Below are positions 2,641 to 9,345 of a stretch of 22,146 nucleotides of DNA, piece by piece. The translations under genes and the position numbers were made by a program. The DNA is taken from positions 1-22,146 of IMG/VR virus record IMGVR_UViG_3300037587_000094; one strand, given 5' to 3'. The notes under the pieces are model-generated. The model was not told the DNA's origin and made no database searches. It saw only the letters and a list, made by a program, of their open reading frames with translations. The stretch comes from a virus. Position 1 is the first letter of the stretch; the number at the start of each line of letters is the position of its first letter.

Positions 2641-2904
2641 ATGAGCAACGTAGTGGATATCGACGGCGGCGGCAGATACGAGATTGGCTACATCTTTGAT
2701 GAGGGCGATAAGATCATCGGCGTAACCCATCCACAATGGCCGTTCCGCATAATGCGCGTCGAAGATAAGATTGCGCTGGTCTGCGAGGATAACGGCGAGC
2801 CATTTAGTGAGCTCGATGCTGACATATTCAATACAATCTTGATGTGCTGGCTATTGGTTGATGATCCGAAGCTGATTGATGAAGCAGCGCAAGACCAGCC
2901 CTAA
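2641..2904 (+). CDS. Acidic hypothetical protein, 87 aa
   Basis: The frame is open from 2623, but ATG 2641 is the likely start because GGGAGAG lies at the normal distance upstream. The protein is strongly acidic (many Asp and Glu) and has a probable beta-rich first half (GGGRYEIGYIFDEGDKIIGV) and a hydrophobic helix near the end (FNTILMCWLLVDD). Acidic small phage proteins often mimic DNA or bind host proteins, but nothing specific is visible here. It is the second-last gene before the RNA locus. Confidence 0.65.
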   Translation: MSNVVDIDGGGRYEIGYIFDEGDKIIGVTHPQWPFRIMRVEDKIALVCEDNGEPFSELDADIFNTILMCWLLVDDPKLIDEAAQDQP

Positions 2905-2926
2905 TTAGCATAGAGGAGAAGGAAGG

Positions 2927-3187
2927 ATGATAAAACTTACAGATGATCAGATATCGGTGCTAGGCAGGCCGAACTTTGCATGTGCACAGTGGGCTAAGTT
3001 GCTTATAGCTGGCGGCATGTACGAAGACAAAGCAAAGAAAGTGGAATACGAGCAGGCGGTGTTCATCCATTTTTCGCTCGATATGCTGGAACAACACGGC
3101 GATCAATGGTTGAAAGAAGCAAACAAGGTGCTAAAGGATTTAGCGGTTAAACAGATTGCAAAACGAGACAATATTAGCGATAATTAA
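2927..3187 (+). CDS. Hypothetical helical protein, 86 aa
   Basis: ATG 2927 is preceded by GAGGAGAAGG, a very strong ribosome binding site. The 86-residue product is mostly helical, with Trp and His residues in the middle and a basic C-terminus (KDLAVKQIAKRDN). No family is recognised. The last 30 bases of the gene contain a sigma70-like promoter (3156-3184) that would start transcription just past the stop codon, so this gene doubles as a promoter-carrying segment for the RNA locus. Confidence 0.7.
   Translation: MIKLTDDQISVLGRPNFACAQWAKLLIAGGMYEDKAKKVEYEQAVFIHFSLDMLEQHGDQWLKEANKVLKDLAVKQIAKRDNISDN
3156..3184 (+). promoter_or_regulatory. sigma70-like promoter for a candidate sRNA
   Basis: TTGCAA (3156-3161) and GATAAT (3179-3184) are separated by exactly 17 bases. 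The expected start, seven bases past the -10 box, is position 3191, which is the first base of the first hairpin. It lies within the end of the 2927-3187 gene. Each hexamer differs from consensus (4/6 and 5/6), so the match alone is moderate; the agreement with hairpin start and the terminator at 3307-3332 raises its weight. Confidence 0.55.
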
Positions 3188-3190
3188 ATT

Positions 3191-3332
3191 GTGCTGATGT
3201 TTAGCACCGCTCTGGGGAGAGCGTAGTGTGTGGCGGAAGAGGGTTAAGATTTGCGGTTTCGGTTTGCTAGGGTACTCCCCGACATTCCGTCACCACCCAA
3301 CTTCCGGGGCTGCAACTCTTAGCCCTTTTTTT
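3191..3332 (+). ncRNA. Candidate phage small RNA, about 142 nt
   Basis: No gene is seen here, but the segment runs from a predicted start to an intrinsic terminator and folds almost throughout. Hairpin 1 is GTGCT/AGCAC (3191-3195 with 3203-3207). Hairpin 2 is CGCTCT/AGAGCG (3208-3213 with 3218-3223) with a GGGG loop. Helix 3 pairs 3226-3238 with 3285-3296, about 12 pairs with one bulged T and one G-U. The terminator follows. I do not recognise a known RNA family. It could be a trans-acting sRNA, an upstream part of the larger RNA locus, or the 3' UTR of the early operon. Confidence 0.5.
3307..3332 (+). terminator. Intrinsic terminator before tRNA-Trp 1
   Basis: The stem GGGCT (3307-3311) pairs with AGCCC (3321-3325) around a nine-base loop and is followed by seven T (3326-3332). 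This is a standard Rho-independent terminator on the + strand. It lies only six bases before the tRNA, so the tRNA either depends on readthrough or has a promoter I could not find. Confidence 0.8.
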
Positions 3333-3338
3333 ATGCGT

Positions 3339-3413
3339 GCTGGGGTAGCTCAACGGCAGAGCAGCGGTCTCCAAAACCGTTAGATGTAGGTTCGAATCCT
3401 ACCCCTCGCGCCA
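3339..3413 (+). tRNA. tRNA-Trp (anticodon CCA), copy 1
   Basis: All arms can be drawn. The acceptor is 3339-3345 with 3403-3409, with one T-C mismatch at pair 3 and a G-T at pair 4. The D arm is GCTC/GAGC; the anticodon stem GCGGT/ACCGT has the loop CTCCAAA, so the anticodon is CCA, reading UGG. The T arm is GTAGG/CCTAC with loop TTCGAAT. The 3' CCA is encoded (3411-3413). The gene sits directly after a terminator and directly before a long structured region, at the border between the recombination block and the integrase block. Confidence 0.92.
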
Positions 3414-3930
3414 CCCTCCTCCCTCCCTCTAGAGCGTTGTAGTCTGTATTTGATGCGATCCGTAATTTTCGAGCGGCCTGTGAGCCAGAGTCGGATAAAG
3501 CCTGAAGTAAAAAGGTGTTACAGCACTGGCGCATCGGGTCACTTCAAATACAGATTACCGGGTTCACTTATACCGGCAGCTCGACACCCGAACAAACGCG
3601 AACGCCTCAAGCATTGAAGTAAGCAGGCACAGGAGCCACGAGATACAAACCAGCGCTTTGAGTCGGCGCAAAAACGTTTTATGTGGGCACGTAGATTGAT
3701 TTAATGGGAGTGGTGATAAGCGCCGGGAGCGCACAGTGGTTCGACTCCACTATCACCCTAGTTGACGGACTAGCCTCGACGGAGGGCTTCCACCAAATCG
3801 ATCTATCTGGGTGAGTTGACCAGCTAATCAGGAGGATGAAGTGGTTTACGACAATAGGTTTGTATTGGAGCATTAGATCAGAACTGAGTTTAGGGCTAGG
3901 TGTCCCTAAGACTCATTAAGACAACTATTG
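3414..3930 (+). ncRNA. Candidate large structured RNA, about 500 nt, beside a tRNA
   Basis: This stretch has no convincing gene but dense base pairing. Helix A pairs 3439-3453 with 3544-3558 (15 pairs, one G-U). Inside it lie 3454-3457/3530-3533 and 3458-3462/3492-3496. Helix B is 3559-3563/3586-3590. Helix C pairs 3691-3702 with 3795-3806 (12 pairs, two G-U) and encloses a junction with a T-loop arm. Helix D is CAATA/TATTG (3852-3856/3863-3867). Helix E is 3885-3895/3904-3915 (11 pairs, one bulge). CCTCCT (3415-3420) can pair with AGGAGG (3830-3835) and close most of the region. Large ornate phage RNAs such as GOLLD and ROOL are known to occur next to tRNAs, so they are the first comparison; I cannot confirm membership. 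The exact ends are not defined. Confidence 0.6.
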
Positions 3931-3939
3931 GAGAATCAC

Positions 3940-4230
3940 ATGATTAAGATAAACGACAGATTTGAATTTGAACGCCAGCAGTATTGCTGGAACCTCTACG
4001 AATGGAAGGACGGCAAGGATAAGCATGGCGAGCCTAAGCGCACCAAGTCCACGACGTATCACAGCAAGCTAGAGCAAATCTGTAACGAGGTGATCGACCG
4101 CAGTGCTGGTGATGCTGACAGCATGAGTGGGCTATTGCTCATTGTTAACATGGCATCGGCAGAATGCGTTGTTGCTATTGGTCGCATGAGTACGCCACCG
4201 GAGGCGCATGTTCCAAGCGAATACGATTAG
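3940..4230 (+). CDS. Hypothetical protein, 96 aa
   Basis: The start is ATG 3940, with TTGGAG just upstream; an in-frame TTG at 3928 is less likely because it would overlap that site. The protein has an aromatic and charged N-terminal half (FEFERQQYCWNLYEWKDGKD) with the look of a single-domain beta sheet, then helices. Three cysteines are spread without a metal pattern. No family is recognised. It is the first gene after the RNA locus, and its 5' leader may include the 3' hairpins of that locus. Confidence 0.65.
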   Translation: MIKINDRFEFERQQYCWNLYEWKDGKDKHGEPKRTKSTTYHSKLEQICNEVIDRSAGDADSMSGLLLIVNMASAECVVAIGRMSTPPEAHVPSEYD

Positions 4231-4821: not shown

Positions 4822-5526
4822 ATGGCACAACGACAGCAAAAGTCCAAGTTCAAGCAGAAGCGACAGGCCCGCGCATTGTATCCTCGTGAGTTGAAACGTG
4901 CGCTTAAGGTCTGCGCTGTTACCCAGGAGCCTGAGCGCAATCGGCTGATCTTGCTGCTGTCGCACGCCTGCCTTTTGCGGGTTAGCGAATTGGCCCAGCT
5001 CAAGATCAAGGACGTTATGTTTAAGTCTGGCAAACTGCGCGATGAATGCCGTCTGCCTGGTGCCTACGCCAAGATGAAAAAGCCGCGCCTGATCTGGTTG
5101 ACGCATAACCAATTGCGCAAGGCGATCGATATCTATCTTGCCTTGCGGATCAAGCGCAGACAGGCAACTACTCGGGACGCGACTAAATACCGTGAACTAA
5201 ACCCGAACAGTAGGTTGATTCTGAACAACAGGGGCGCTGGCTACGGCATGAACTCTAAACCCCGCATGATGCAGGATGGCTCGATACGCGAGTATAAAGC
5301 TTGTGACAGCATGGAACGGCTATTCAGGGACATCTACAAGCGAGCGGGCCTAATCGGCGCTAGCAGCCACTCAGGCCGCCGCAGCACAGCAACGAGCCTG
5401 GACGAACAAGGCGTACCACTGGAGACCATCCAGCGCCTACTTGGCCACTCAGATCCAGAACATACCCTGCCCTATATCGAGGTCCGACCAGAGCGAGTGC
5501 GATCGGCCTTTGCTGCTGCGTTTTAA
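4822..5526 (+). CDS. Tyrosine recombinase / integrase, catalytic domain only
   Basis: The 234-residue protein carries the tyrosine recombinase residues in order: Arg53 in LLRVSELAQL, a lysine-rich segment near 84-87, H183-S-G-R186 (HxxR box), His209 in LLGHSDPEH and the nucleophile Tyr218 in LPYIE. These enzymes cut and rejoin DNA at att sites through a 3'-phosphotyrosine. A typical phage integrase is 320-400 residues with an N-terminal arm-binding and core-binding domain; here only a short basic leader (residues 1-20) precedes the catalytic domain. It may therefore be a minimal recombinase, for integration or for dimer resolution. AAGGGTAGG lies upstream of ATG 4822. Confidence 0.88.
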   Translation: MAQRQQKSKFKQKRQARALYPRELKRALKVCAVTQEPERNRLILLLSHACLLRVSELAQLKIKDVMFKSGKLRDECRLPGAYAKMKKPRLIWLTHNQLRKAIDIYLALRIKRRQATTRDATKYRELNPNSRLILNNRGAGYGMNSKPRMMQDGSIREYKACDSMERLFRDIYKRAGLIGASSHSGRRSTATSLDEQGVPLETIQRLLGHSDPEHTLPYIEVRPERVRSAFAAAF

Positions 5527-9269: not shown

Positions 9270-9345
9270 GTTCCGGTAGCTCCAACGGCAGAGCGACGGT
9301 CTCCAAAACCGTAGGTTGCAGGTTCGAATCCTGCCCGGTTCGCCA
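9270..9345 (+). tRNA. tRNA-Trp (anticodon CCA), copy 2, imperfect acceptor
   Basis: The D arm (GCTC/GAGC), anticodon stem (ACGGT/ACCGT, perfect) with loop CTCCAAA, and T arm (GCAGG/CCTGC, loop TTCGAAT) are all intact; the anticodon is CCA. The acceptor 9270-9276 with 9335-9341 keeps five pairs but has T-T mismatches at pairs 2 and 3. CCA is encoded (9343-9345). The gene is flanked by the nine-base direct repeat ACTAAACAA (9260-9268 and 9345-9353). It may be functional with a weak acceptor, or be decaying. Confidence 0.8.

Follow-up and report, generated by a model that had tools for sequence, protein, structure and literature searches.

What occupies the largest gap between open reading frames in the genome of a P22-like phage? 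The window analyzed here, a virus record of 22,146 bases with terminase, portal, and major head protein genes, has such a gap at 3188 to 3939 (752 nt), and a tRNA-Trp lies inside it. A first-pass annotation had singled out the stretch downstream of this tRNA, 3414 to 3930, as a region without a convincing gene that folds into several long helices, and had assigned it to the large phage RNAs of the GOLLD and ROOL type. We are close to certain that the gap holds a member of a real conserved RNA family. The RNA locus comprises about 740 bases, from a promoter-like site at 3156 to 3184 to about 3930, around the tRNA-Trp, and its true 5' start is about 225 bases upstream of the border first proposed.

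Gene content, folding, and setting of the locus

Codon scores in the gap are negative or near zero in all three plus-strand frames, and those of the neighboring genes are positive. A coding explanation was rejected on these scores and on family searches, in agreement with the first-pass annotation. The helices that had been named, as well as the CCTCCT and AGGAGG sequences (3415 to 3420 and 3830 to 3835) thought to close the region, are present where they were said to be. The accompanying claim that the helices are much longer than expected by chance holds in part. Helix A has 15 contiguous pairs (14 Watson-Crick and one G-U). When the 517-nt region is dinucleotide-shuffled, a helix as long turns up in 8 of 300 shuffles, so that helix A by itself is only moderately unusual. 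Helix C, with 12 pairs, is ordinary when taken alone, a helix of at least 12 pairs being found in 134 of 300 shuffles; hairpin E (10 bp with a bulge) is equaled by 4 of 300. The whole 517-nt region has a minimum free energy z score of only -1.97. Its two best local structures, 3432 to 3566 and 3688 to 3810, jointly reach -102.4 kcal/mol, which is matched by 1 of 400 shuffles on the plus strand, while the minus strand's own best pair of local structures is matched by 188 of 400. Given these counts, the claim is limited to helix A and to the region as a whole.

Upstream of the tRNA, 3238 to 3338 folds better against shuffles than the region originally delimited (z score of -4.2, with none of 300 shuffles as good), and the search was therefore extended beyond the initial coordinates. 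The strongest conserved structure lies outside those borders, in a 5' domain at about 3190 to 3332 that had been missed.

The sister phage G001, whose portal protein is 91% identical to that of the window, keeps both flanks of the locus (window 2893 to 2930 and 3902 to 3947). Between them, in place of window 3188 to 3939, it has an HNH endonuclease gene (PF01844; E value, 1e-9; L093, 1527 to 2033, minus strand) without the RNA or the tRNA. Since the same flanks enclose a different gene, the locus is an exchangeable cargo site. A tyrosine recombinase gene of the integrase family is located at 4822 to 5526, 0.9 kb downstream. The window has a second tRNA-Trp at 9270 to 9345; the corresponding place in the sister phage is taken by five different tRNAs (Pro, Gln, Tyr, Leu, and Leu; L014, 3945 to 4446).

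Relatives of the RNA

Neighbor-protein searches gave no close relatives carrying the locus, the closest relatives by portal protein are without the RNA, and blastn of 3414 to 3901 against phages and plasmids returned chance or tRNA matches only. Matches in a Lactobacillus and a Markadamsvirinae phage were judged to be chance T-arm resemblance, and a back-translated scan of genome contigs with the antisense frame over the domain of helix C (domain C) found nothing. The scan that found the family used the noncoding plus-strand frame over helix A as a pseudo-protein and matched one viral contig, L105, which is 80% identical to the window over 3204 to 3331, 93% over 3414 to 3458, and 94% over 3542 to 3608. 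L105 led to the Vibrio phages 1.110.O and 1.240.O, and these to Seahorse, BT-1011, H2, 1.242.O, 1.275.O, and others. With 3'-domain queries, Seahorse matched 37 records and NF matched 33; the figure of about 50 marine phage records is only a rough union, because duplicate accessions and near-identical isolates are counted in. Relatives are found in Vibrio and Pseudoalteromonas phages, in one further P22-like viral contig (L052; portal protein 44% identical to that of the window), and in one bacterial contig (L189), detected by DNA similarity in 1 of 296 genomes from one bacterial order, with the 5' domain on the contig. Nearly all of these loci are unannotated gaps.

Eighteen loci, the window included, have the same 5' layout of a promoter-like site, a P1 hairpin, and a P4 stem running into a U-run. 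A covariance model (R2) built from eight members matched, outside its training set, NF (E value, 6e-11), L052 (8e-11), L183, L179, L184, L185, L178 (HS5), L186, and L181. Five of these (NF, L183, L179, L184, and L185) had been recognized by eye before this search; the 5' domain of HS5 and the contig L052 had not been noticed earlier. In a set of 46 P22-like and related records that did not contain the window, R2 matched only two, those of L105 and L052, and the RNA is thus accessory in that group. It also occurs in phages that have no common portal protein or only a distant one. The genes downstream vary among phages (methylases, hypothetical proteins, and a phosphatase), and many phages, whether they have tRNAs or not, preserve the succession of 5' domain, slot, and 3' domain.

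A pseudoknotted 5' domain

The elements of the locus are listed in Table 1. Taken alone, the promoter-like site of the window is weak, with 16 of 200 shuffles scoring as well; across the family, 0 to 4 of 200 shuffles do so in 14 of 16 members. These sites keep step with the 5' end of the RNA across members. No second promoter-like site was found in window 2900 to 4000.

Table 1. Elements of the RNA locus in window coordinates
Element	Position	Strand	Comparison or remark
Promoter-like site TTGCAA-17-GATAAT	3156..3184	+	relatives have TTGCA/TATAAT-like sites at the same place
P1 hairpin CGCTCT-GGGG-AGAGCG	3208..3223	+	
P2 5' strand (P1 loop), pseudoknot with 3275-3281	3213..3219	+	permutation test; one double change versus L105
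P2 3' strand CTCCCCG	3275..3281	+	permutation test; L105 comparison
P3 5' strand GTGGCGGAA, pseudoknot with 3285-3293	3230..3238	+	permutation test
P3 3' strand TTCCGTCAC, within P4 loop	3285..3293	+	permutation test
P4 5' strand of long stem	3238..3262	+	permutation test
P4 3' strand, runs into U-run	3304..3328	+	permutation test
U-run (seven Us)	3326..3332	+	with P4, intrinsic-terminator-like signal
tRNA-Trp, CCA anticodon, in exchangeable slot	3339..3413	+	other tRNAs or a hairpin there in relatives
Pyrimidine-rich linker CCCTCCTCCCTCCCTC...	3414..3438	+	kept in L105 (window 3414-3458, 93% identical)
Helix A 5' strand	3439..3453	+	pairs with 3544..3558; recurs in L105 and L052
Helix A 3' strand	3544..3558	+	pairs with 3439..3453; recurs in L105 and L052
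Hairpin CGGGT..ACCCG, then AACAA	3559..3590	+	in 94%-identical block common to L105
Helix C 5' strand	3691..3702	+	pairs with 3795..3806
Helix C 3' strand	3795..3806	+	pairs with 3691..3702
tRNA-like fold in domain C, without anticodon arm	3711..3758	+	sequence
Hairpin E near 3' end	3886..3914	+	3' arm and adjoining ATTAAGACAACTATTGGAGAA common to G001

In the window, P4 is a 25-bp stem that ends in the U-run and is crossed by two pseudoknot helices, P2 and P3; across the family, the stem measures about 19 to 26 bp and its loop some 34 to 45 nt. As in an intrinsic terminator, P4 is a stable stem placed directly before a U-run. P3 joins the bases just before P4 to the P4 loop and hence forms a pseudoknot, and since it shares with P4 the first base of that stem (3238), both helices cannot pair there. 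By inspection, the 5' strand of P3 has a second possible partner within P4 in both the window (CTTCCG) and L105 (CTACCG).

Pairing was assessed in 14 nonredundant 5' domains, in which each strand was scored with its own partner and with those of the other members, using 20,000 permutations. Own partners scored above swapped ones for P4 (33.1 versus 17.5; 0 of 20,000 permutations, with P4 boundaries set by hand in 5 of the 14 members), for P3 (18.8 versus 13.7; 0 of 20,000), and for P2 (16.9 versus 14.6; 10 of 20,000). The signals were gone in reversed-loop controls (8,023 of 20,000 for P3 and 6,035 of 20,000 for P2). An earlier and looser pseudoknot test, with 60-nt strands and bulges allowed, was not significant (1,344 of 20,000). 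P3 is weak in some members (L180 and L182), and so is P2 (L171, L180, and L182). Between the window and L105, there are two double compensatory changes in P4 and one each in P3, P2, and helix A, and none of the counted pairs is broken. The proposal of a large structured phage RNA beside or around a tRNA is thereby borne out by compensatory changes in relatives, both in helix A and in P2, P3, and P4, which the first-pass annotation had not seen. There is thus good support for a conserved family of pseudoknotted RNA that has a tRNA slot, and comparison shows its predicted architecture in gene-free space to be a 5' domain (P1, P4 with the U-run, P2, and P3), the slot, and a structured 3' domain.

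An exchangeable tRNA slot

Directly after the U-run, members have zero to three tRNA genes or a hairpin. The contents seen were Trp, Met, Arg, Trp plus Arg, Trp plus Arg plus Gly, Met plus Arg, Tyr, Gly, or a hairpin. L052 has a tRNA-Tyr, the bacterial contig has a tRNA-Gly straight after the U-run, and L105 has the non-tRNA hairpin GTGTCTGG..CCAGACAC instead of a tRNA. Members without a tRNA still keep the RNA, and in two of these, L170 and NF, the last bases of the U-run can take part in the slot hairpin, as judged by inspection. L174 is a short version in which only a terminator and GTGTCTGG are left.

The Vibrio phages 1.110.O and 1.240.O and Pseudoalteromonas Pq0 have a further hairpin in common after the U-run, GAGTTTTTAAAGCGTT..TCATGGCGGCTC, with an outer stem that varies (L158, 3018 to 3067; L159, 3018 to 3068; L175, about 1801 to 1850). 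In Pq0 it is accompanied by tRNA-Met and tRNA-Gly, and the 5' domain is absent. The slot of Vibrio phage NF (L176, about 1815 to 1922) holds a degenerate sequence resembling a tRNA (TGTCTG..CAGACA, including two T-arm-like pieces), for which ARAGORN made no call.

The 3' domain

In the window, L105, and L052, the 3' domain opens with helix A (CTGTAT.. strands), which takes the form of a 13+10-bp relative beyond the slot in L052. Compensatory changes in helices A, C, and E had been proposed as a test; they are seen for A, in both L105 and L052. Helix C has in L105 a positional analogue only, of 11 bp (TTAGAGGGGGT/ACCCCCTCTAA), a covariance model of domain C (R1) matched the window alone, and hairpin E shows no covariation; the ATTAAGACAACTATTGGAGAA that follows it is partly present in L105 too. 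As to the closure of the region, CCTCCT is kept in L105 with no AGGAGG partner there, and covariation was not found. Neither helix C nor hairpin E nor the CCTCCT/AGGAGG closure is proven, and the same holds for any function. In L105 (2671 to 3017), the helix A domain is present in two tandem copies, each with its own matching strands.

The tRNA-like fold inside domain C has a 6-bp acceptor-like stem as well as D-arm-like and T-arm-like hairpins. No homologue of it was found: scans for 22-base exact matches and for its loop pattern yielded either no match or a single chance one, within what seems to be coding sequence.

The Vibrio phages keep another set of helices in their 3' domain, including a covarying hairpin CGGG..CCCGAACAA (columns 40 to 67), and RNAalifold gives a weak consensus for this domain (-13.3 kcal/mol, with double changes in 8 of 31 pairs). 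The window hairpin that follows helix A (CGGGT..ACCCGAACAA spans 3559 to 3595) appears to resemble this Vibrio hairpin, and the end motifs before the next gene are similar by eye (AGACTCATTAAGACAACTATTGG in the window, GGTCTCATTAGACAGACTATTGG in L105, and GGTCTAATGATAACTATTG in Vibrio). Clear similarity of the 3' domain is confined to comparisons inside the window/L105 group and inside the Vibrio groups; the link between them through helix A, CGGG..CCCGAACAA, and the end motif is weaker.

Comparison with known RNAs

Membership in GOLLD or ROOL, as first suggested, is contradicted by the Rfam covariance models, none of which, these two included, matched 3100 to 3960 even at an E value of ≤10; the relatives were also searched, and only tRNAs and subthreshold partial matches were returned. 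The RNA is a new large phage family outside Rfam, with a setting like that of GOLLD and ROOL but a member of neither. GOLLD is a large structured RNA of phages and prophages whose function is unknown; it is often >800 nt long and often near tRNAs, sometimes with tRNAs within a linker, it forms a homo-oligomeric RNA cage, and its 3' region is universally conserved and its 5' region less so (PMC12286853). The present locus likewise lies in phages, beside or around tRNA genes. In contrast to GOLLD, it is the pseudoknotted 5' domain, ending in a terminator-like stem, that is most widely kept here, and the 3' region differs between window/L105 and Vibrio. ROOL is phage-borne, near tRNA islands, and forms a nanocage with several pseudoknots (PMC12286853). 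Location in phages near tRNAs, several pseudoknots, and a comparable length are features in common, but P2 and P3 are not the pseudoknots of ROOL, whose model does not match.

With intrinsic terminators and attenuators the locus shares a stem followed by a U-run, but a stem of 19 to 26 bp whose big loop is paired back to the 5' leader in two pseudoknots is far more elaborate. The tRNA genes in the slot recall tmRNA and phage tRNA arrays, and domain C contains a T-arm-like element that matched cyano_tmRNA in part, at 13.7 bits, far under the 70-bit cutoff; here, however, structured RNA lies on both sides of the tRNAs and is kept where they are absent. A tmRNA or tRNA fossil was rejected, neither ARAGORN nor Rfam having identified a tmRNA, as was a group I or group II intron, for which no Rfam intron model matched. 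We found no description of this RNA in open-licence papers; an earlier description elsewhere is possible.

Discussion

The best explanation for the locus, at a probability of roughly 0.6, is a new family of large pseudoknotted phage noncoding RNA carrying a tRNA slot. The locus probably produces a single transcript with tRNA cargo, which would start from the promoter near 3156 to 3184. P4 and its U-run would halt some polymerases and release an RNA of about 140 nt; P2 and P3, occupying the P4 loop and having a base in common with the P4 foot, could modulate this stop. Polymerases that read through would make the full-length RNA (about 740 nt); host tRNA-processing enzymes may then cut out the tRNA, leaving structured RNAs on both sides. 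In this way the locus would deliver tRNA cargo under the control of its own RNA fold and make a stable structured RNA during infection. That P4 and P3 form a regulated terminator is a suggestion to which we give somewhat less than even odds. More tentative still is the idea of a class of RNA platforms in phages: two pseudoknots close to the promoter would act as a switch at the terminator-like stem and govern read-through into an exchangeable tRNA cassette within one large structured RNA, so that tRNAs are swapped into a conserved chassis.

Alternatively, the U-run could always end transcription, the 5' domain being a separate small RNA and the remainder another unit. The locus would then consist of two or three units: a small RNA that has a promoter and a terminator to itself (3190 to 3332), an ordinary phage tRNA gene, and an unrelated structured 3' RNA or the leader of the gene at 3940. 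P4 with seven Us is indeed a textbook intrinsic terminator, the promoter-like site lies just upstream of the 5' domain, and the short version L174 has kept just a terminator and GTGTCTGG. Nevertheless, we consider separate units unlikely, as the order of the three parts is maintained in many phages whether or not tRNAs are present, a second promoter-like site was not found in window 2900 to 4000, and in L170 and NF the slot hairpin can include the end of the U-run.

Improbable, in our view, is a large ornate RNA that folds and self-assembles like GOLLD or ROOL, forming a complex of RNA only in which the tRNA slot would be the linker that holds the cargo. Phage location near tRNAs, two pseudoknots, and a length of about 500 to 950 nt would suit such a complex; the covariance models of both families fail to match, and no terminator-like stem is known to us from the middle part of these RNAs. 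Similarly doubtful is a regulatory leader only, attenuator or riboswitch-like, that serves the tRNA genes or the next gene and has no role as a free RNA. The overlap of P3 with the foot of the terminator stem and the alternative partner of its 5' strand in P4 are what such a leader might show, but the RNA is kept in members without a tRNA, and the downstream genes differ among phages. Finally, a DNA-level element, such as an attachment site or recombination hot spot with inverted repeats beside the tyrosine recombinase, could account for the nearby integrase-family gene and the replacement of the locus by an HNH gene in G001 but is scarcely credible, given strand-specific folding (1 versus 188 of 400 shuffles), base-pair covariation that includes the pseudoknots, and the spread of the RNA among phages with no or only a distant common portal protein.

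GOLLD and ROOL are among the most complex bacterial RNAs of no known function, and the large pseudoknotted RNA described here appears to be a further family. Many marine phages in culture carry it; its terminator-like domain with pseudoknots is conserved, and the content of its tRNA slot is exchangeable. Because members belong to small phages available as isolates, the RNA can readily be deleted, its transcripts mapped, and its structure studied; it may also show how phages gain, lose, and regulate tRNA genes.
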